Virus record (IMG/VR): IMGVR_UViG_3300021137_000086
Coordinates: 1 to 25,506 of that record
Source of the DNA: a virus
Length of the DNA: 25,506 nt
Strand: one strand, 5' to 3'
Position numbers and translations under genes: made by a program. Of this stretch, positions 4,092 to 20,114 are shown piece after piece. The notes below the pieces were generated by a model. The model did not search any database and was not told the origin of the DNA. It saw only the letters and a list, made by a program, of their open reading frames with translations. Within the stretch, counting starts at the first letter, position 1, and each line of letters starts with the position of its first letter.

Positions 4092-5272
4092 CACGATGTA
4101 ACCACCAAATCAGGACTTGTATTTTTAGCTCTTATATTCATTCTGTAGCCTTCATGGGTACTCATGGAGCGCATTACGCTATCAGGGAAATAGTCTTGGT
4201 CAAAACTACTATTTGTCCCCTGCACTCTTAGCAACATTTCGCAATTTAAGATGGAATCAGCAGGCATATAAGCCGTTAATGTCATCTCATGCGCCACAAT
4301 TTGACCGTATCGTGTAACGGCTTCTTTAGTCGCTTGCTCTTGCGTTAAGTTTGGGACTGTATAGCGGTAATTCGTAGTATGTGGAACGGATTGCCCCGGC
4401 TTAATCCCCTTACTGGCTTTTGGGAAGTATGCGGAGAATCCTGTTTTTTGCTTTGAATTCCAGCTATGAATCTCAACAGTAACGCCCTTAGATATATGGA
4501 GCGCCCTTGAGAATGAAAGCTCTACTGCATTAGATATTGGATAAGCACGATTTTCATTTGATTCGTCCCAATTTAAGAGATAAACGTCCTTCTCCACTTT
4601 TTGCTTTCCGAAGAATAATTCTTTGCCTGAGATATAGACTAAGAACCCTTCCATATTTGCGAGAAATATTAGTAGATCCCAGTCGCTTGAATCGGTCTTA
4701 ACATTGTCATGGTCTATTTGGTAATAAACACCTGCTTTTGTTTTAGTGGGTGTAATGTTCTTTACGCCTAAACCATGCTTTTTAGCAAGTAAGGTAGCTA
4801 TTCCGCTGGAGGTCTCATTTACATAGTGATCGCTCGACTTGGTATCAATCAACAATGCCGTTAAATCACGACCATGAAGCTCAATAGTTCCTCGAACGGG
4901 GTTGTAGCTAATCTCATCAACAGAGCCATAAATAAGGCTATCTTCATCACTAGGTAGGTAGTTCTCAGGGCTTAATGGATCTTCATTGGCGTATATCTGA
5001 GCGCTAATAAAGGATTGATTAGAAAACCACTCAATGCCCATGCCTATTGGCAGAATTGAAGAAATTAAATGGATTCTGAAAGTATCAGCGCCACGGAAAG
5101 TATTATTTTCAACTTCCCATGACTCCCAGCAATCGAACAGGGTTACATTTGTGGTGGCCCTTGATTTCTCAACTCCAGCATCATCTCTAACAATTACTGT
5201 ACCGCTTAATTTGATGGCGCCTCTTGGCTGTCTAGCCATAGGCATCATCACCTCATCGGAAGTATTAAGCAT
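4091..5272 (-). CDS. Baseplate hub protein (P2 gpD / Mu gp44-like)
   Basis: A 393-residue protein between the LysM tail protein X and the spike gene, the fixed place of the tail hub (P2 gpD, T4 gp27-like). It shows hub-like features: SVDEISYNPVRGTIELHGRD (about residues 117-136), a region with SSGIATLLAKKHGLGVKN (about residues 155-172), and WDLLIFLANMEGFLVYISGK (about residues 198-217), which match late-control-D / hub proteins in layout. The hub trimer caps the tube and carries the spike. The ATG at 5272 overlaps the end of gene X by 8 bases. Alternative starts at 5248, 5245 or 5239 follow a GAGG and would shorten the protein by 8-11 residues, so the exact start is open. The stop overlaps the start of the spike gene. 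Confidence 0.85.
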   Translation of the reverse strand: MLNTSDEVMMPMARQPRGAIKLSGTVIVRDDAGVEKSRATTNVTLFDCWESWEVENNTFRGADTFRIHLISSILPIGMGIEWFSNQSFISAQIYANEDPLSPENYLPSDEDSLIYGSVDEISYNPVRGTIELHGRDLTALLIDTKSSDHYVNETSSGIATLLAKKHGLGVKNITPTKTKAGVYYQIDHDNVKTDSSDWDLLIFLANMEGFLVYISGKELFFGKQKVEKDVYLLNWDESNENRAYPISNAVELSFSRALHISKGVTVEIHSWNSKQKTGFSAYFPKASKGIKPGQSVPHTTNYRYTVPNLTQEQATKEAVTRYGQIVAHEMTLTAYMPADSILNCEMLLRVQGTNSSFDQDYFPDSVMRSMSTHEGYRMNIRAKNTSPDLVVTS

Positions 5273-5450
5273 TCCAAATACCTGTATTAATTTTGTTGTA
5301 GTCAGGAATATTTAAAGTAACTATTCCGATTAATTGTGGGTCGGTTAAGCCATTGGCTTGGGCAATTTGCACCCAGCCCATTGGGTCGCCGTAATACTGC
5401 GAAGCAATCTGATATAGGTTTCCACCAGCTACTGTAATTTGCTTACTCAT
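5265..5450 (-). CDS. Tail protein X, LysM domain (P2 gpX-like)
   Basis: This 61-residue protein is almost entirely one LysM-type domain: GGNLYQIASQYYGDPMGWVQ (about residues 9-28), IAQANGLTDP, then an IVTLNIPD strand close to the end. Its place between the DNA-circularisation-like protein and the hub is that of P2 gpX and similar small LysM proteins, which in contractile tails bind where the tube, hub and tape measure meet; peptidoglycan binding is not implied. ATG 5450 overlaps the preceding stop by 4 bases (ATGA), and it overlaps the hub gene by 8 bases. Confidence 0.9.
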   Translation of the reverse strand: MSKQITVAGGNLYQIASQYYGDPMGWVQIAQANGLTDPQLIGIVTLNIPDYNKINTGIWNA

Positions 5451-6244
5451 TTTCCAATAGTCCTCAAGTTATTCTGTATGCGCCCAATAACAGAGGCAGC
5501 ACTTACTAGCGCAATCCCTGTAGATACGGCATTGGCTTGCGTGGCGAATCCAGCAGTTTGAGAAGAAATGCCTGCACCAGAGACTACGCCGCCAACCGAC
5601 GAAGTGCCGCTAATTAAAGTGGAGTTTGCAGTTAAGAGCGTTCCTACTTGTGATCCCATTGCCGCCAAAGGAAGCGCTAACGCTAGGAGTGAGCTAGGGG
5701 AAGCATTTTTCAAGTTGCCAGCAGTAGCTAAAGCAATATTGGCAGTAATCAACATGGATGACAGAGTGGCATCATCTAAGCCGCCAGCGAGTAAACCTAA
5801 TGCCCCGAAGTCATCTCCAATAAGCTGATCTACGCTAGGTAGAGGCTTGGATAGAATTGGAGTGGTTAAGTCTTGAACTACCTCAAAGGAGATTTTGTAA
5901 GTGAGCCTATAGAACTGGTGGAAGTCGCACTTAAACGACTTAATAACCACCTCAAATCGAAATTGACTCCAAGAGAGAATCCACTTCTTGCCACCTTTTC
6001 TTAACCCGTCAAGGTACTTCGCTCTAGCCACACCCTGAGAGCCTACAAAGTGGCCCGACCATTCGATGTTGTCTTGGGTAGCACCCATTACATCAACCAC
6101 CCTAGAGCCTCCTACACGCTCATGGACAGTCATTCGTTGATCGCCGCCAAAGTTAATGGTTTGCGGAATCTCATAGCGTGCGAATGAGAAGAACTCAAGC
6201 GTCTTAGGATTTTTAAGCGTTAATAGTGTATTTGGAAATGACAT
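5447..6244 (-). CDS. Inner baseplate / DNA-circularisation-like tail protein
   Basis: A 265-residue protein. The N-terminal half (about residues 1-130) is beta-rich, with MTVHERVGGSRVVDVMGATQ and later YRLTYKISFEVVQD, resembling in layout the N-terminal domain of Mu gp43 / XkdP-type proteins (DNA_circ_N family) found between tape measure and LysM protein. The C-terminal half (about residues 135-265) is Ala/Ser/Leu-rich and probably helical, perhaps contacting the tape measure. In contractile tails this class joins the tape measure and tube tip to the hub. The old name 'DNA circularisation' is historical. Start ATG 6244 overlaps the tape-measure stop by one base (TAATG). Family assignment is from position and weak motif similarity. 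Confidence 0.65.
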   Translation of the reverse strand: MSFPNTLLTLKNPKTLEFFSFARYEIPQTINFGGDQRMTVHERVGGSRVVDVMGATQDNIEWSGHFVGSQGVARAKYLDGLRKGGKKWILSWSQFRFEVVIKSFKCDFHQFYRLTYKISFEVVQDLTTPILSKPLPSVDQLIGDDFGALGLLAGGLDDATLSSMLITANIALATAGNLKNASPSSLLALALPLAAMGSQVGTLLTANSTLISGTSSVGGVVSGAGISSQTAGFATQANAVSTGIALVSAASVIGRIQNNLRTIGK

Positions 6245-8199
6245 TAATTAACTCCTACGGATCTAGGACTCATGGATGGGTCATATTGAGATCCACTTAA
6301 TGAGGGTCTATTTGCTTCTATTGCTTGATGGGTGGTTACAGCTCTAGCAACTTCTCTGCTATTTATCTGAATAGATGTATTTACTTGAATTGGCTTTTCA
6401 GCATTTTTTACCCATGTACCGCTCCTTCCTGCTCGTACAAAATGCTCACCCTCATGGTCTTTTTTTGCAGCCGCTATTTTTTGCGCTTGAGAGGCAGGCA
6501 TACCAGTAGCATCATCAATCCATGTGCCAGTTTTAACGCCCCTACCATCAGGCCTCCAATGCTGACCAGGGTGAGAGCTATCAGTTTTGCTGTTGAAAAT
6601 ATCCCTTGAAAGCACCCAAGACATTGCGGAAACAGCCCCAACTAAAAGACCAATACCAGCAACAGCAGTCATAATAATTGTTCCTCCAGCCGCCAGAGAT
6701 CCAATTGATGCGCCCAACCTTCCAATTCCAGTGGATGACACAGCAGCTCCAGCAGAAACAGTAGGAAGCGATGCTCCTAAAATTTGCATAGCAATTGCGG
6801 CAGGCTTCAATAGGTCAAGACCCATTAAAGATGCTGTAAATAACATCATAGCCCCTCTTGCCAATGCAATACCGGCAATAAGCGCAAATGTCTTTAAGAT
6901 AAATTCCGTTATGGTCGGGTATTTCTTGGTGAAATCCGTAATCTTGTCAATAACGCTAATTAATATCTCTAGAGACTTAATGGCTATCGGCAAGATTTTC
7001 TGGCCGAGCTCCAATTTAAGACTTGCTAACTTGGCTTCATATTGAATTTCCTGACCCATCAGTGTTTTTGATCCAGCCTTGGCGAGATCGTCAATCCCCA
7101 TCGCTCCTTGTGCAGCATCTATATGCTTTTGAATGTTGAATCGCTCCATATACATAGAGGTCCAAAGATTGCCGGCGGTGCGATTGCTAAATAGCTTTGC
7201 TATAGCCATTTGCATTTCATCGCCATCCTTAATGCCCTGCTTTTTCAGCCTTGGAATGATTACCTCATTCATGTATCTAAATTGATCCGTTTTGAACAAG
7301 TCAGCCTGAACGATTGACTCAGAGTCTAGCTTTGTGACATGGCCAGTTTTCCCATAATGTATTTTTGATTTATCTAGCAATCCATCTTTAGCCATCAACT
7401 CCGCTACTTGTTGGGTTGTTCTCCCCATATACATATTTTGAAATCCGGACATTAAGCTAGTGCCAACCCTAGAGCCGCGTTGCTCTTGCATCATGTGCAT
7501 CAAACCAAAATAGAACGCTTGATCGTCTAAGCCTTTGGCGGCTACACCGCCAGTTTTAATCATTGCAAGGTAATCCGATGGCTTTACCAGACCGCCTGAT
7601 GCTGTATAAGCCCGGGTCATAAAGTCCATCGTTTCCTTTAGCTTTTCTTCGCTAAATTTTCCTGTAACCCTATCCGTTACAGCGCCACGCAATTCACCGA
7701 CCTTTAATGCCGCCATGAATTGCTGCTCCATGTTAGCCCCATGACCATTACCCATTACCGATTCAATCCCAAACTTCATCTTTAGAAGCATTGGCGTCAC
7801 AGCCTCCGCTTCATGCTGATCTCTTAGGATTGATGTGGTTTCGGATAGCATCTTCATGGTATCAGTTGCACTGGCGCCCATTATTTTCTGAGCCCTAGCA
7901 AACTTATCGGCCTGCACCAACGCGGAATCGCCAACACCTTGAGCAGATAGCTTGCCCATTTCCTGCTGGTATTTTTTTGCCTCATCCAGTGGACCCTTAA
8001 ACATATGAATCCCAATACCACCCATTGCTACCAGCCCACCGCCAATCATTGCAGTTTGACCAATCCGCTTTAATTGGGCGTTTAATTCTTTTGCCCCTAA
8101 ATTTGCTGTGGCAAAATGCTTTGACATACTGGCCAGACCAGCCGTAACATTTTCTACAAGCGCTATTTTTACCGCAATCTTATAGGCATCTATGCTCAT
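6244..8199 (-). CDS. Tail tape measure protein
   Basis: The largest gene of the tail operon (651 residues from ATG 8199). A TTG one codon upstream at 8202 is less likely, because an AGAGAG lies 6 bases before the ATG. The protein is helical, has a short hydrophobic stretch at about residues 50-67 (MIGGGLVAMGGIGIHMF) and a long hydrophobic, Gly/Ala-rich part at about residues 430-545, as in tape measures that insert into the inner membrane during DNA entry. It sits between the tail completion and chaperone genes and the baseplate genes, as expected. At roughly 0.15 nm per residue it would set a tail near 100 nm; this is a rule-of-thumb estimate. Its 5' end overlaps a divergent gene on the plus strand by 8 bases, which is unusual. 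Confidence 0.9.
   Translation of the reverse strand: MSIDAYKIAVKIALVENVTAGLASMSKHFATANLGAKELNAQLKRIGQTAMIGGGLVAMGGIGIHMFKGPLDEAKKYQQEMGKLSAQGVGDSALVQADKFARAQKIMGASATDTMKMLSETTSILRDQHEAEAVTPMLLKMKFGIESVMGNGHGANMEQQFMAALKVGELRGAVTDRVTGKFSEEKLKETMDFMTRAYTASGGLVKPSDYLAMIKTGGVAAKGLDDQAFYFGLMHMMQEQRGSRVGTSLMSGFQNMYMGRTTQQVAELMAKDGLLDKSKIHYGKTGHVTKLDSESIVQADLFKTDQFRYMNEVIIPRLKKQGIKDGDEMQMAIAKLFSNRTAGNLWTSMYMERFNIQKHIDAAQGAMGIDDLAKAGSKTLMGQEIQYEAKLASLKLELGQKILPIAIKSLEILISVIDKITDFTKKYPTITEFILKTFALIAGIALARGAMMLFTASLMGLDLLKPAAIAMQILGASLPTVSAGAAVSSTGIGRLGASIGSLAAGGTIIMTAVAGIGLLVGAVSAMSWVLSRDIFNSKTDSSHPGQHWRPDGRGVKTGTWIDDATGMPASQAQKIAAAKKDHEGEHFVRAGRSGTWVKNAEKPIQVNTSIQINSREVARAVTTHQAIEANRPSLSGSQYDPSMSPRSVGVN
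8121..8150 (+). promoter_or_regulatory. Sigma70-like promoter for the plus-strand moron genes
   Basis: TTGACA at 8121-8126 is a perfect -35 box. With an 18-base spacer it is followed by TAACAT at 8145-8150 (4 of 6 matches to TATAAT). It lies inside the 5' part of the tape-measure gene but faces the other way, and predicts a start near 8157, about 35 bases before the ATG at 8192. Promoter function is inferred from sequence only. Confidence 0.6.
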
Positions 8200-8578
8200 C
8201 AAATTCTCTCTTTTTTTGTCGATTCTTTTAGCATCTGTTAGCTATGGAGCTAATATGGGAAGCCCTAAAGCTGGGGATAAAGTCAGATTAATCAGCCCGG
8301 GCCATGTTTGCAGTACTAGGGAATCGGCAGAGCAGGCTTTAAATATGGCGCACTCTCAATTGCTTGGAAGGCACCCAAACTGGTACGCAAATAATTTAGG
8401 CTATGACATAAGCGTACTATGCAGGGATATGCTCAACACAAATACTGGAATTGCATCTGTTGTAAGTTCCGATAAAAATGATCTTCTTTTTATAAAAATC
8501 AAATTTCAGCCATATCAGACGAATAAAGAGCAGTTCATATACTTTGCGCCACAAGAATTCCTAGAGAAAGCTCAATGA
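8192..8578 (+). CDS. Secreted protein, moron-type gene 1 (unknown function)
   Basis: A 128-residue protein on the strand opposite to the late genes. The N-terminus is a good Sec signal peptide: MLIKFSLFLSILLASVSYGA, with a likely cleavage after SYG (residue 19) or the next Ala. The mature part has two Cys (in HVCS, about residue 40, and LCRD, about residue 77) that could form a periplasmic disulfide. A GDKVRLI strand near the start and beta-strand runs at the end suggest a small SH3-like beta fold; this is a guess. The ATG overlaps the 5' end of the tape measure gene by 8 bases, and no strong ribosome binding site is seen, only a weak AGG. It overlaps the next gene by ATGA. I do not recognise a family. 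Lysogenic conversion or superinfection exclusion would fit a secreted moron product, but nothing in the sequence proves this. Confidence 0.7.
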   Translation: MLIKFSLFLSILLASVSYGANMGSPKAGDKVRLISPGHVCSTRESAEQALNMAHSQLLGRHPNWYANNLGYDISVLCRDMLNTNTGIASVVSSDKNDLLFIKIKFQPYQTNKEQFIYFAPQEFLEKAQ

Positions 8579-8847
8579 AATCAATCGAAAAAATACAAAC
8601 AGTTTTAGCCGATAAATTTAGCTTTATTCAGTACCCACACATAAGGCAATCAATAAAGAGCCAAAAATGGGAGCGCCATGAATCAAACCCAATAATTGAG
8701 GTTGATAAAAATAGTGATAACGCCAAAATTAGTTTAGATGGGAAGATACTCATCCTCATTGGGTCTTTACTTATTGGGCTTATTTCCATCATTCCAATGC
8801 TTATCGGCGCAATTATTGTCTTTGCCGTAATATCCAGCCTTTTTTAA
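8575..8847 (+). CDS. Small membrane protein, moron-type gene 2 (unknown function)
   Basis: A 90-residue protein translated after gene 1 through an ATGA overlap, so the pair is probably co-expressed. Residues 1-52 are hydrophilic and charged. From about residue 55 the sequence is continuously hydrophobic (ILILIGSLLIGLISIIPMLI, then GAIIVFAVISSLF), long enough for a helical hairpin with a central Pro. The protein would sit in the inner membrane with its charged N-terminus on one side. It ends convergently with the minus-strand tail completion gene, overlapping it by 4 bases. A secreted partner plus a membrane protein might act together at the envelope. A class II holin is an alternative, but the long hydrophilic N-terminus makes this less likely. 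Confidence 0.65.
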   Translation: MKSIEKIQTVLADKFSFIQYPHIRQSIKSQKWERHESNPIIEVDKNSDNAKISLDGKILILIGSLLIGLISIIPMLIGAIIVFAVISSLF

Positions 8848-9347
8848 CTTTCGCTGATATTGTGGTCATACTCAAAATCTTGTGATATAGAACTTTCACC
8901 AAGCAACCCAGAGATTGCTGCGCCGCCAACAATCCTTTTAATTGCTTCTCTATTGAGTTCTACAGCAGCACCTAAAAATGGTCTTGGTGGAATTTTTGCA
9001 GTACCCAACTCTTGCCATACCGCTATATCAGAATTAGAGCCGATTGATGCCTCTAATTTGTTTACATCGGTTTGATGCTCAATAGAGTTGCGAAGTTCGC
9101 CTGTTCTTAGTAATGGGTCATTTTCACTAAACCCCTGAGATAGCCTATCTTTTTTAGTGCTATCAGCAAGCTCATCCCAACTTTGAAATGGCCCTATTTC
9201 CTGCTGATACTCTCCTAACTCATCTTTTGCCGTCTGTTTAACTTTTTTTGCAACCCTATCAAGACCTCTTGCGAGGTTCATGTGAAACCTAACTTCTACG
9301 GCTACCAACTCCGATGCAAATGATCCTAAATCACCAAATGACTTCAC
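8844..9347 (-). CDS. Tail completion / neck protein, HK97 gp10-like
   Basis: A 167-residue protein with a C-terminal stretch typical of the HK97 gp10 and Mu gpG / virion morphogenesis group: LLRTGELRNSIEH (about residues 79-91), then SDIAVWQELGTAKIPPRPFL (about residues 105-124). Members act at the neck or tail end in tail completion. The start is a GTG at 9347, supported by AAGGA six bases upstream and by a one-base overlap (TAGTG) with the stop of the frameshifted chaperone product. It lies between chaperone and tape measure, not next to the neck genes as in many phages. The last codons overlap the convergent moron gene. Confidence 0.75.
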   Translation of the reverse strand: MKSFGDLGSFASELVAVEVRFHMNLARGLDRVAKKVKQTAKDELGEYQQEIGPFQSWDELADSTKKDRLSQGFSENDPLLRTGELRNSIEHQTDVNKLEASIGSNSDIAVWQELGTAKIPPRPFLGAAVELNREAIKRIVGGAAISGLLGESSISQDFEYDHNISES

Positions 9348-9894
9348 TATTTATCCTTAAATTGCATTGTGTTCACATCGAATTCTTCACCATTAAATTC
9401 TTGGAATTTAATTGAAAAAGCCATTCTCGTTACATCATCAAGCGCAAAGGCAACATCAAATGGTATGCCGTTGTGGACAAGCCATAAGCAATCTCTTATG
9501 GCATTGTCCGTTAGGAGTTTTTTAACTCAAACTCACCCTTCTCTTTTGAATCTTCGCTCAGGATGTGGTTAAAGACACCAAGCATTGCTGCTTCATTCCC
9601 CTCATCACCAAGTCGCTTATATAGGGCTCTGAGCTCGCCCTCTGTGCTAGGGCATGAAACCGGTTGCCCATCAATTGATGAAACATATTTTAGGTGAAAT
9701 ACCTCACCCCAATAATTCACATTAACCTTTTCCCCTCCGGCTGCTTTAGCAAAATCAAGGTTTGCCAATGGATTAGGCTTCTTAATGACAATACACCTAC
9801 CGATAGAGTCGATGACTTCAAACTCTTTTGTTGCGGATTTAATAATCTGTTCGCTTGGGCTAACAGTTAAATTAACGGGTTTTTTTTCAGACAT
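9347..9894 (-). CDS. Tail assembly chaperone, -1 frameshifted long product (G-T type)
   Basis: Slippage by one base at the A AAA AAC heptamer (minus strand, 9523 down to 9517) joins the first 126 codons of the chaperone to a second frame of 56 codons that runs to the TAG at 9347-9349. The added part (LLTDNAIRDCLWLVHNGIPF, then DVAFALDDVTRMAFSIKFQE) is a sensible protein sequence, with no own start of note. The total is about 182 residues. In lambda-type and P2-type tails the long form links the chaperone to the tail tube protein while the short form coats the tape measure. The extension ends in a one-base overlap with the GTG of the next gene, which supports its being real. Confidence 0.85.
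9481..9523 (-). promoter_or_regulatory. Programmed -1 frameshift site with downstream stem-loop
   Basis: The slippery heptamer is A AAA AAC in frame (codons TTA AAA AAC), the most efficient bacterial -1 motif, at 9517-9523. Fourteen bases downstream lies a perfect 8-bp stem, GCCATAAG / CTTATGGC (9495-9502 and 9481-9488), with a 6-base loop. The spacer is longer than the usual 5-9 bases, so the stem may stimulate only weakly; the slippery site alone can work in bacteria. Confidence 0.8.
9511..9894 (-). CDS. Tail assembly chaperone, short (zero-frame) product
   Basis: A 127-residue protein upstream of the tape measure, in the position of lambda gpG / P2 gpE tail chaperones. It is charged, without membrane segments, and ends right after a slippery run at 9517-9523, with EFELKNS as the last residues before TAA. 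Chaperones of this type bind the tape measure before tube assembly and are absent from the mature virion. A GAGAG six bases before ATG 9894 is the likely ribosome binding site. A structured element lies 30 bases upstream. Assignment rests on position plus the programmed frameshift at its end, not on sequence recognition. Confidence 0.8.
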   Translation of the reverse strand: MSEKKPVNLTVSPSEQIIKSATKEFEVIDSIGRCIVIKKPNPLANLDFAKAAGGEKVNVNYWGEVFHLKYVSSIDGQPVSCPSTEGELRALYKRLGDEGNEAAMLGVFNHILSEDSKEKGEFELKNS

Positions 9895-15288: not shown

Positions 15289-18200
15289 TTATCCTGCGAC
15301 TACCCAGTATTGGAAGCCGGAAGGCTCAGTCATCGCATTAACAGTAAAGGTTGAAACCTTAATTGCGTTCATTGATAGTGCGACAGTAGAGTTGGCAGCG
15401 ATCATGCAAAATGTAGTGCTGTTACCTGATGCCGCTTGATAGTTTGCCGATACAGGGAGCGCTCTTTGTGTCCAATTGATTCCGTCAGGACTGGTTATTG
15501 AGTTTGCTGAATTCGCACTTATTCCTAGGAATAACGATCCGTTGTAAGCAAGGGAAGACCAAGATAGAGATACAGGAAGAACCCGTTGAGTCCAATTGAT
15601 TCCATCTGGACTTGTAGCGGATATTGTCGAGTTATAGGCGAGAGCACAAAATATACTTCCGTTCCAAGCTATCACAGTCCAATCTGCCATAACTGGCATT
15701 GCTCGTGTTGTCCATGTAATTCCATCGGGGCTTGTTGCACAGGTAGATGAACCAGTTGCAACGGCACAGAATATGTTTCCATTTGATGCAATGGAATTCC
15801 AAGATGCGGCGGACGGTAGCACTCCCTGTGTCCAAGTCAGCCCGTCAAGACTTGATACGCAACCTGTTGAACTTATAGCAATCGCACAAAAAGTAGTTCC
15901 GTTACAAGCCATTGAAATGTAGCTTTTGGAAACTGGTAACGCCCTTTGTGTCCAAGTTACTCCGTTTGGGCTGGTTGCATAAATTGTTGAGCCGTAGCAA
16001 ATAGCGCAAAATAATGAGCCATTCCACGATATAGCTTGCCAATTATTTGAAACAGGCATTGTCTGTTGATACCAACTAACTCCGTCAGGACTTGTCGCAC
16101 ATATTGCGGAATTTGAAATTGCGCAAAATACTGCACCATTCCAAGCAACAGAAACCCACCCCGTTGATGCTGGTAGAACTCTTTGGGTTGTTGTTACCGT
16201 ATATGAGGCTAAATTAGCCGAAAGAATTGGATAGCTTGCGCTTAAATTTCCTGTTGATGCTTGGCGTAAATATCCTGTGTATGGCGCTAATGAAGAAGAA
16301 AATAATCTGTATTCGCCAACGGTCTGTAAGCTGCTAGAAGTGCTTACTGAACTAGACCCGCCTAATGATTTCCATACTGCCCCTACTGTTCCTATAGCCC
16401 AAACTGTATTTGCAGGAACTGAGCCAACGGCAGAGTAAACACTGGAATCGGTATAGCGAACTATGTCACCAGCAATATAGGCTTTTGTTGCGTCATAAAC
16501 TGGTGCGTTTAAGTAATCAGCACGAGCTAAAGCGTTAAGACCTTGGTAACCCAAAGCCATGCCCTTATTAGAGAGCGATTCTTTTGATAACTCTGCGGTT
16601 GTAGCTCTGCTTGTTTCTGCCGTAACCGCCGTTGTTAAAGCATAAGAGGCATTTAATGCGGCCTGCGCTGTACTTGGCGGTTTAAGTAGGTCGCTTGTAT
16701 TGTTTACATTGTTAAGGCCTAAACTGGTTAATGTGGGCAATACCTGATCGCCTGTATTTACTCCACTAGCTGATCCTGTCCCTGTTGCATAAGTACCCGC
16801 TACTTGTGCGCCTACTTCTGAATAGGTGTATGCAGGCTTAGTAGGTGACTTAGCCCATGCGCTTACGTCTGAGGCGGGTAATGTTGTAGGGATTACCTGA
16901 TCGCCCGTATTCGATCCTGAGAACGCTAGATTAGGTATATCACCCAATCCGATCATTGCTTTAGTAATTCCGCTTACTGTTCCCGTAAATACAGGATTAG
17001 CCGATGGAGCTTTAAGTGATACGGCTATGGTTAATGCGCCAGCGGCACTTTCATCGCTTAATAATTGAGTTGCGATCTGCGCCAATGTAGCGAGGGCTGC
17101 TGGGGCTACTCCAATTACTGCCGCTATCTTTGAATCAGTTTGAGCGATTGTGTAAGTAGTCGATTGCGGGGCTAGTAATGAAGTTGCAGCAATACGATTA
17201 GCCGTTTCAGTAGCTAAGTTTGTTGCTAATAGCGTTTCGGCATTACCGGCTCTAGTTGCCTCTGCTGATACTGCCAGACCTCTATTTGTTACTTCTGCTG
17301 AAATTGATGCAGTCAGTACAGTTTCGGCAGAAATAGCCCGTGTGTTCTCAATCAGGACTTTGGCAGTTGCATCAGTTGAGGCCGTTGTTACTGCGGTGGC
17401 TTCTGCTGTCTGCGCTCTTGTTGCTTCGGCTGTAATAGCTAATGATCTATTAGTTGTCTCAGTCGCTAAATTAGTAGCGAGAGTAGTATCTGCCGTTGCT
17501 CTTGTATTTGATTCAGCTATTAGCGCTGTATTGAGTGCAAAAGTAGCATTTATCGCTGACTGAGCGTTACTGATCGGCTTCAAAAGATCAGAGGTGTTAT
17601 TGATATTCGATACTGCTGTCAATGGCGTTAATAGTGCTTCGGCATTGGTAGCACGAGTAATTTCGGCAGTTAATAAAGTTGGATCGACAACACCAGTATC
17701 ACCTTTAGCACCAGTTAAGCCTGTTAATCCAGTATCGCCTTTGATACCTTGAATACCTTGTGGGCCAGTTGAGTTAGTTGATCCTGTACCACCAGATAGA
17801 CCAGCCGTGATGCTATCTACTTCTGATTTTGTGTAAGTCGTTGCTTTAGGTGCAAGTAAGGCTTCGGCGGCTTGTGCTCTAGTAGCTTCAAGCGTGATAT
17901 TTGCAGAATTAGAGCTTATTTGCGAGGCAATAGAATCGAAGTCAGATAAGACTACCCAGCTTGTTCCGTTGCTTCTATATAGTCCAGCACTTTTTCTACT
18001 TACTCCCCATACGCCGCTTGAATTATCAACGGCATAGATTGCGTTTAGCGTAGTTAATGCGCTTGGTAAGTCAGCGAAGGTATTAACATTTCCAGCAATA
18101 ACATCGGATAAGGATGAAAGTGCAGTAAGTGTAGTTTGAATTTGAGCAATTGCTGTCAATGGAGCAAAAGTCAACGCAGTAACAGCTTGGACTCCGGCTG

Positions 18201-18360
18201 GATTGGTAGGCAAGCCAAGCGCGATTAAGCCACCAGCTACGTCAGTTGATCCGCCGCTTGAAGATAAGCCACTTGTAAGCAATGCGCCACTAGAATCCGC
18301 TTTTGCTGGAACTTCATTACCATTTGCATCAATAAGCATTAGCTTTACACCATGTGACAT
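15289..18360 (-). CDS. Large modular fibre: collagen-like, coiled-coil, propeller tip
   Basis: This 1023-residue protein has an N-terminal part (residues 1-150) of unclear fold, a collagen-like Gly-X-Y run (about residues 199-224, including GPQGIQGIKGDTG), and Ala/Glu/Thr-rich coiled-coil repeats with the motif AEATRA..AE (about residues 155-395). SG.NTGDQ motifs follow at about residues 482-538, as in many phage fibres. Around residues 622-645, YDATKAYIAGDIVRYTDSSV resembles a chitin/carbohydrate-binding strand motif. The C-terminal 280 residues hold seven repeats of about 40 residues, probably a seven-bladed beta propeller. AGAGGGT lies before ATG 18360. It lies among head and neck genes, unlike the fibre at the left end, so it may be a head or whisker fibre; this is inferred from order only. 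Low complexity makes the middle hard to align. Confidence 0.85.
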   Translation of the reverse strand: MSHGVKLMLIDANGNEVPAKADSSGALLTSGLSSSGGSTDVAGGLIALGLPTNPAGVQAVTALTFAPLTAIAQIQTTLTALSSLSDVIAGNVNTFADLPSALTTLNAIYAVDNSSGVWGVSRKSAGLYRSNGTSWVVLSDFDSIASQISSNSANITLEATRAQAAEALLAPKATTYTKSEVDSITAGLSGGTGSTNSTGPQGIQGIKGDTGLTGLTGAKGDTGVVDPTLLTAEITRATNAEALLTPLTAVSNINNTSDLLKPISNAQSAINATFALNTALIAESNTRATADTTLATNLATETTNRSLAITAEATRAQTAEATAVTTASTDATAKVLIENTRAISAETVLTASISAEVTNRGLAVSAEATRAGNAETLLATNLATETANRIAATSLLAPQSTTYTIAQTDSKIAAVIGVAPAALATLAQIATQLLSDESAAGALTIAVSLKAPSANPVFTGTVSGITKAMIGLGDIPNLAFSGSNTGDQVIPTTLPASDVSAWAKSPTKPAYTYSEVGAQVAGTYATGTGSASGVNTGDQVLPTLTSLGLNNVNNTSDLLKPPSTAQAALNASYALTTAVTAETSRATTAELSKESLSNKGMALGYQGLNALARADYLNAPVYDATKAYIAGDIVRYTDSSVYSAVGSVPANTVWAIGTVGAVWKSLGGSSSVSTSSSLQTVGEYRLFSSSLAPYTGYLRQASTGNLSASYPILSANLASYTVTTTQRVLPASTGWVSVAWNGAVFCAISNSAICATSPDGVSWYQQTMPVSNNWQAISWNGSLFCAICYGSTIYATSPNGVTWTQRALPVSKSYISMACNGTTFCAIAISSTGCVSSLDGLTWTQGVLPSAASWNSIASNGNIFCAVATGSSTCATSPDGITWTTRAMPVMADWTVIAWNGSIFCALAYNSTISATSPDGINWTQRVLPVSLSWSSLAYNGSLFLGISANSANSITSPDGINWTQRALPVSANYQAASGNSTTFCMIAANSTVALSMNAIKVSTFTVNAMTEPSGFQYWVVAG
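15352..16191 (-). repeat. Seven tandem ~40-residue repeats (120-bp period) in the fibre tip
   Basis: Seven units, each read as TQR.LP.s..W.sia.NG..FcAi..nS...ATSPDG..W, occur at about residues 724-1003 of the large fibre, such as TQRALPVSKSYISMACNG and ITWTTRAMPVMADWTVIAWN. The blades differ by substitution more than by length. Unit 7 is the most diverged and lacks the SPDG turn. The count fits a seven-bladed beta propeller. The DNA period is about 120 bases. Confidence 0.8.
17689..17766 (-). repeat. Collagen-like Gly-X-Y segment in the large fibre
   Basis: About eight Gly-X-Y triplets (GPQ GIQ GIK GDT GLT GLT GAK GDT) at residues 199-222. Collagen-like segments are known in phage fibres as trimeric stems. 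Confidence 0.8.
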
Positions 18361-19218: not shown

Positions 19219-19240
19219 AAAAAGCCCGACTAGCGGGCTT
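19219..19240 (-). terminator. Terminator of the HNH endonuclease gene
   Basis: Arms aagcccg (19222-19228) and cgggctt (19234-19240) with an actag loop, followed on the minus strand by five U (A run 19219-19223). The stem overlaps the stop codon of the endonuclease gene, so it is part of that unit. Confidence 0.85.
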
Positions 19241-20114
19241 ATGTTTTTGATCGTTGTCTTATAGGTTGCGATATTGCTTTTTCAACAGTCCACCCTTCAT
19301 CTATCAACCTCTTGCTTAGTATGCGCCTTGGTATTCCAGTAACTTCCGCAAGATCGCTTGTATCTAGCATTTTGCCTTGGTATATGAATGTTTGACGAAT
19401 AAATTTAGGCGGTTTAACGGGCTTTTGATGGCCTTCCCATCGATTTTTTCTAGCAATCAACATACGCTCATTTTTATCAAGCGCTGGGGTTGTAATAGCT
19501 TTTGATACCGACCATCCCCACACATCAATGCGCTCGCTAATTACAGATCTAGCAACTCCAAATTCTTTCCCCCATTGGGTTACAGATTTTGCTTCGCCTC
19601 GAAAAGTTAATTTTCTGCCAGTGCTTCGGTTGTCGCAATTTTCTGATTTAGAAGCCCATCGAACATTGCTAGGCTCATAATTCCCATCATTATTAATGCG
19701 GTCAATTTCTGCTCCTTGAAAATATCCATCAGGCAAATCAGCTACAAAATTAGCTACATCGTGCCAACGCTCACAAACAGTAATACCTCTACCACCATAG
19801 TTTTTATATGATTTTGATTCGGGTTTGTAACACCGAGTCATCATATGAAACCACCTGTCGTAATGAGCAGATTTTGTTAAGCCATGAGTTTTAATTGCCT
19901 CACGCTGTAAGCAACCGCATGAATTTGTTGGTACTGGTTTTTTTAAAGCATCCGACCTTACTGAAATAATATTTCCGCAATCGCACTTGCAAACAGAAAA
20001 ATACCTGTAAGTATTTTGTATTTGACCAACAGCTAAAACTTTCAGCCGGCCATAAACATCCCCAACACCAACTGCTTTAGATGATGTGGGGACTAAACCA
20101 AACTTTTTAAGCAA
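19239..20114 (-). CDS. Free-standing HNH homing endonuclease with zinc N-terminus
   Basis: A 291-residue protein. A zinc-binding cluster lies at about residues 42-68 (VCKCDCGN, then SCGCLQ). HNH-type homing signature at about residues 83-163: YDRWFHMMTRCYKP, YKNYGGRGITVCERW, then IDRINNDGNYEPSNVRWA and SENCDNR. The first residue in the core is Asp in place of the usual His. The C-terminal half has two related DNA-binding modules, at residues 168-209 (KLTFRGEAKSVTQWGKEFGV) and 236-282 (QTFIYQGKMLDTSDLAEVTG), each ending W[ST]V.KAI[TS].P. The TTG start at 20114 has a strong AAAGGGGGG site, within a hairpin. It is inserted between the capsid gene and small head genes, consistent with homing near a conserved late gene. 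Confidence 0.85.
   Translation of the reverse strand: MLKKFGLVPTSSKAVGVGDVYGRLKVLAVGQIQNTYRYFSVCKCDCGNIISVRSDALKKPVPTNSCGCLQREAIKTHGLTKSAHYDRWFHMMTRCYKPESKSYKNYGGRGITVCERWHDVANFVADLPDGYFQGAEIDRINNDGNYEPSNVRWASKSENCDNRSTGRKLTFRGEAKSVTQWGKEFGVARSVISERIDVWGWSVSKAITTPALDKNERMLIARKNRWEGHQKPVKPPKFIRQTFIYQGKMLDTSDLAEVTGIPRRILSKRLIDEGWTVEKAISQPIRQRSKT

Follow-up and report, generated by a model that had tools for sequence, protein, structure and literature searches.

Known blocks to DNA entry and the setting of the locus

HK97 gp15, TP-J34 Ltp and P22 SieA are proteins that block the entry of phage DNA, and the routes of escape from these blocks lie in the tail tube and tape measure genes (gp15), in the tape measure protein (Ltp) and in the ejection proteins (SieA) (PMC10883804). 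The ltp gene of TP-J34 is located in the lysogeny module (PMC3952083). Tape measure proteins are also the partners of the SNIPE nuclease, which associates with them at the membrane (PMC13190303).

The stretch of DNA analyzed here, which we call the window, is a 25,506-base IMG/VR virus record that encodes head and contractile-tail genes, nearly all of them on the minus strand. In agreement with the initial annotation we found two plus-strand ORFs, gene A (8192-8578) and gene B (8575-8847), within a block that is otherwise transcribed from the minus strand. They are located between the genes for a tape measure protein (TMP; 6244-8202, minus strand, phrog_28, E 8.6e-17) and a tail completion (neck) protein (TC; 8844-9347, minus strand, phrog_26, E 4.7e-16). 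The divergent genes TMP and A overlap at their starts, and the convergent genes B and TC have a TTAA in common at their stops. Gene B encodes a protein of 90 aa with an EWLADR-SWVQYP motif (here TVLADKFSFIQYP) and a C-terminal hydrophobic helix or hairpin. In dinucleotide shuffles of positions 8151-8850, plus-strand ORFs of at least 128 codons, the length of A, occurred in 0.15% of cases and those of at least 90 codons, the length of B, in 3.75%; for B, comparative evidence therefore outweighs length. The G+C content was 0.40 for A, 0.35 for B and 0.43 for the window, GC3 values were alike, and the foreign composition expected of a moron was not seen for either gene.

Like B, HK97 gp15 is a small membrane protein whose gene adjoins that for the tape measure protein, being located directly upstream of it, and gp15 is a dispensable moron of a temperate phage. 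The gp15 gene is however parallel to the tail genes and has its own terminator, whereas B is antiparallel. Moreover, gp15 is 62 aa long and has an N-terminal hydrophobic segment, while that of B is C-terminal, and HK97 is a siphovirus whereas the tail encoded in the window is contractile. An hhalign comparison of B with gp15 gave a probability of 0.2% with one aligned column. B might resemble gp15 in function but is not a homolog of it. TP-J34 Ltp and the lactococcal Sie2009-type proteins are likewise prophage-encoded, envelope-anchored and active against DNA entry, but they act in Gram-positive hosts, and neither A nor B matched the Sie-like family. P22 SieA is an inner-membrane prophage protein that stops DNA injection by its own phage type (PMC10883804); it differs in that its target is the podovirus ejection proteins and not a tape measure, and B showed no family match. 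No homology was found between B and known exclusion proteins.

Further observations were made among the minus-strand genes of the window. The gap between TC and an assembly-chaperone-like ORF (9347-9511) is kept in length among relatives, with a median of 166 bp, and probably represents a frameshifted second chaperone reading frame, as is common in tailed phages. An HNH endonuclease ORF among the head genes (19239-20114; phrog_374, E 2.3e-61) is probably a free-standing homing endonuclease. A 1023-aa ORF (15289-18360) ends in repeats of the form SPDGxxWTQRxLPxSxxWxxxxWNGxxFC, similar to those of a beta-propeller tail fibre tip.

Gene B: family, site and distribution

Eighty viral contigs were gathered as relatives of the window by their sheath genes. 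Among those reaching the interval between TC and TMP, this interval was about 250 bp long and mostly contained one B-related ORF of 70-95 aa on the opposite strand. A second search, independent of position, with a DNA motif from a 36-member alignment retrieved 86 stretches in viral contigs and nine bacterial genomes. The bacterial matches were from Burkholderiales and one Rhodocyclaceae MAG, and a match in Leifsonia contained no B ORF. After removal of duplicates there were 120 distinct contigs with relatives of B, and in each of the 111 contigs in which both neighbours were visible (111/111) B was located between TC and TMP on the opposite strand. The initial annotation had described A and B as a single 640-base insertion, a two-gene moron. 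This description did not hold, as B occupies the site in most relatives and only A is phage-specific. Nor did we see the varying insertion site of a moron: the site of B is fixed save for a single displaced copy in the Rhodocyclaceae MAG (L173/L186).

The contigs with the displaced copy, L173 (1-8000) and L186 (G029:C134:12000-21000), encoded a DnaB-like helicase, homologs of TMP and gpD and small ORFs, followed by B on the same strand, and after B an NlpC/P60-like ORF and host-like genes. Sheath, tube and TC genes were not detected there. This copy may belong to a decayed prophage, to a rearranged assembly or to a satellite-like element that has retained TMP and B. It sits at a prophage end, a usual place for prophage-expressed genes.

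Members of the B family share the motif R..EWLADR.S[WF][VI]QYP..R, in which A, Q and Y were invariant in the alignment of 36 sequences and which was kept across 93 non-redundant members. In these 93 sequences the net charge of the part ahead of the hydrophobic run averaged +5.5, and the run itself comprised a median of 31 uncharged residues and stopped about one residue short of the C-terminus. By the positive-inside rule the charged part of such a protein is expected on the cytoplasmic side, so the N-terminal motif of B should face the cytoplasm. A hydrophobic hairpin had been proposed for the C-terminus of B. The hydrophobic run of about 31 residues was confirmed, but it is long for a single pass through the membrane and short for two, and the hairpin form did not appear in an AlphaFold2 model built on the alignment. 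This model showed helix 3-14, a less certain middle part and a single long helix 54-89, with a mean pLDDT of 84 and a pTM of 0.48. The C-terminus may cross the membrane as a single tilted helix or fold into a tight hairpin.

In 18 independent pairs of B sequences dN/dS was 0.07-0.34 with a median pN/pS of 0.23. B is thus a coding gene under purifying selection. Searches of B members against Pfam, PHROGs, NCBIfam and PADLOC resulted only in scattered single matches at chance level; among these, the 36 members scanned against the PADLOC defence families gave one match with E 0.045. No relatives of B were found in annotated phages, and a fold search with the B model retrieved no viral fold below E 0.001. 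We likewise found no match of A or B to tail gene families; it was such a match that had been named beforehand as speaking against a moron. The B family is undescribed and unnamed, although the kind of system it resembles is already known.

The size of B and its C-terminal hydrophobic segment would also suit a small membrane toxin, an antiholin or a lysis regulator, and a YafQ-type toxin gene is present in the same interval of one relative (L021). A conserved soluble motif is however atypical of hydrophobic type I toxins, and most loci were without an antitoxin-like partner. No match to a holin, antiholin or toxin family was obtained and no lysis cassette was located nearby, and we regard such a role as quite improbable.

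In nine contigs, some of them near-identical, B was cleanly absent and TC abutted TMP; in the more distant phage phiKX1 there was also no gene ahead of the putative TMP. The clean absence from sister phages that the initial annotation had proposed as a check was thereby found for B and, as described below, for A. On the sheath tree the phages without B required five changes, at least three of which were forced by well-supported branches, and the TMPs of some of these phages were more than 50% identical to TMPs of B-bearing phages. Judged from this comparison, B is near-fixed in its phage lineage yet dispensable. The near-invariant position of B by TMP and TC and the strong conservation of its N-terminal motif could also fit a role in the lytic cycle, in which B would be a membrane- or virion-associated factor for tape measure insertion, tail assembly or injection of the phage's own genome. 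We consider this rather unlikely, as the direction of B opposes that of the late operon and relatives with homologous TMPs lack B, which indicates that tails of this type can do without it. An integrase was encoded in 15 of the 18 B-bearing records that were searched for one, which makes the lineage mostly temperate. B is carried by contractile-tailed, mostly temperate phages whose hosts are Burkholderiales and relatives. Cultured strains with such a prophage include Duganella guangzhouensis and Pararobbsia alpina.

A promoter of its own had been attributed to the locus. The site itself stood up: a candidate sigma-70-like promoter on the plus strand at 8121-8150, antisense in the 5' part of TMP, consists of TTGACA, an 18-nt spacer and TAACAT, and scored 13.0 bits on a sigma-70 matrix, more than 98.8% of its own shuffles (p 0.012). 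A plain consensus scan of the region, in contrast, showed no excess of promoter-like sites, with 7 found and 9.6 expected. Because a plain comparison between loci is confounded by G+C content, we scored the B-driving strand over the 110 bp at the start of TMP against shuffles of the same DNA and included loci lacking B as controls. Loci with B (n=68) reached a sigma-70-like score of 5.17 vs 4.04 in shuffles (p 0.001), and those without B (n=10) showed no enrichment (2.96 vs 3.03). This enrichment is modest and the control group is small, and together the scores suggest that B is probably expressed independently. A gene placed antisense in the tail operon, with a promoter overlapping the TMP start, might also matter through its transcript and not its protein, by antisense RNA or transcriptional interference on TMP or TC. 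With dN/dS well below 1 in the 18 pairs, the protein motif kept in 93 sequences and no match in Rfam, this is highly improbable, and a reading based on antisense RNA only was rejected because of the selection at the protein level.

Gene A and the envelope partners of gene B

Gene A (8192-8578, plus strand) encodes a phage-specific protein of 128 aa that is predicted to be periplasmic. As had been noted initially, it begins with a classical-looking signal peptide, judged by eye (MLIKFSLFLSILLASVSYGA, approximately residues 1-20), which is followed by two cysteines, C40 and C77. The proposed ATGA overlap between the stop of A and the start of B was also present (8575-8578, plus strand) and suggests translational coupling. 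The only relative of A was found on one near-identical contig of 7.7 kb, and A was absent from every other relative of the window. The approximately 370 bp of A are the sole part of the A and B stretch peculiar to the window phage. Homology searches for A in phages, plasmids, PDB, Pfam, PHROGs and NCBIfam gave chance-level matches only, and among 399 genomes of the same order the only matches had E values of 6e-4 to 6e-3, two of them with internal stops. A structure model of A was unusable (pLDDT 52). Neither protein had been recognized in the initial annotation, and the profile searches of both and the fold search of B, all at chance level, bear this out. A is a separate, phage-specific addition beside B.

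Five lineages encoded an envelope partner on the strand of B, namely A and four others. Two of the latter are encoded downstream of B, namely a 118-aa signal-peptide protein with two cysteines (L048/L092 and L115) and, in L187, a protein whose signal peptide depends on an inferred start. In L049 the gene for a signal-peptide protein overlaps the end of B, and in L062 a signal-anchored protein is encoded upstream of B. These partners are unrelated secreted or anchored proteins, and A showed no similarity in BLASTP to two of them. The partner in L062 is coupled to B by an ATGA in the same layout as in the window and showed a weak match (E 2.7e-5) to phrog_8545, annotated as "superinfection exclusion Sie-like". 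This family is broad and is also matched by non-phage control genomes, and its name therefore gives no more than a lead for the L062 partner. With A and B from the window no match to the phrog_8545 profile was obtained.

Two further observations concern genes of these phages. In L188, the 45 kb record of the near window relative L006, bases 7318-7752 matched phrog_8545 with E 3.9e-23 at a place remote from the tail genes. In L021 a gene for a YafQ toxin (PF15738, E 2.6e-34) with a RelB/DinJ-like neighbour was located between B and TMP (4739-5414); the YafQ gene is on the strand of B, and the adjacent copy of B appeared truncated.

That B and five partner proteins are directed to the envelope, in temperate phages and with a candidate promoter for B itself, could also point to lysogenic conversion of the host envelope. 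B and its varying secreted partners would then alter inner-membrane or periplasmic physiology to the benefit of the lysogen. This would leave the confinement of B beside TMP in 111 of 111 contigs unexplained, although linkage by descent could account for it, and the match of the L062 partner to a Sie-like family also argues against it. We regard conversion as unlikely.

Predicted role of the locus

Superinfection exclusion is most likely the function of the locus, as predicted from the sequences compared here. The initial view was partly supported: an envelope-directed, dispensable and probably independently transcribed gene is consistent with the integrases, the purifying selection, the modest promoter enrichment and the clean absences, but the two-gene unit did not hold. 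Specifically, B may be an inner-membrane protein that the prophage expresses and that excludes superinfecting phages at the injection step, with A as an optional periplasmic accessory, a prediction that in our estimate has about an even chance of being correct.

In this proposal B would have a promoter of its own, located at the beginning of TMP and antisense to it, and its transcription would thereby be independent of the late tail operon. The N-terminal part, which carries positive charge and the EWLADR-SWVQYP motif, would be cytoplasmic and the C-terminal hydrophobic run would serve as inner-membrane anchor. In a lysogen B might then hinder related phages as they inject their genomes, at the inner-membrane step and most likely via the incoming tape measure protein, and A, being coupled to B, could act from the periplasm to extend or change this block. 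We infer the topology of B, its expression in lysogens, its exclusion activity and TMP as its target from the comparisons above. For TMP as the target the support from sequence lies in position, because in the full set of pairs the correlation of distances between B and TMP was no stronger than that between B and TC. An excess for TMP in a filtered set of pairs was dropped, given that the full set correlates equally with TC.

Exclusion genes usually vary, and the near-universal presence of B in its lineage is therefore unusual and counts against an exclusion function. Tentatively, B and its neighbours could represent a lineage-wide exclusion locus, in which an inner-membrane core, B, is kept beside its target gene TMP and interchangeable periplasmic partners alter or widen the excluded range; we consider this possible, though on the doubtful side. 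Its position on the opposite strand would allow the prophage to express B while the tail operon is silent.

Few prophage blocks to DNA entry are known, and some of these consist of small membrane proteins that are connected with tape measure or ejection proteins. The published exclusion cases cited here are from phages with non-contractile or short tails, whereas the B family belongs to contractile-tailed phages. It is missing from family libraries despite its presence in more than 100 phage contigs and has thus been overlooked by automatic annotation. The B family would allow a lineage-wide comparison of exclusion and its presumed target, with natural controls lacking B and natural variation of the partners.
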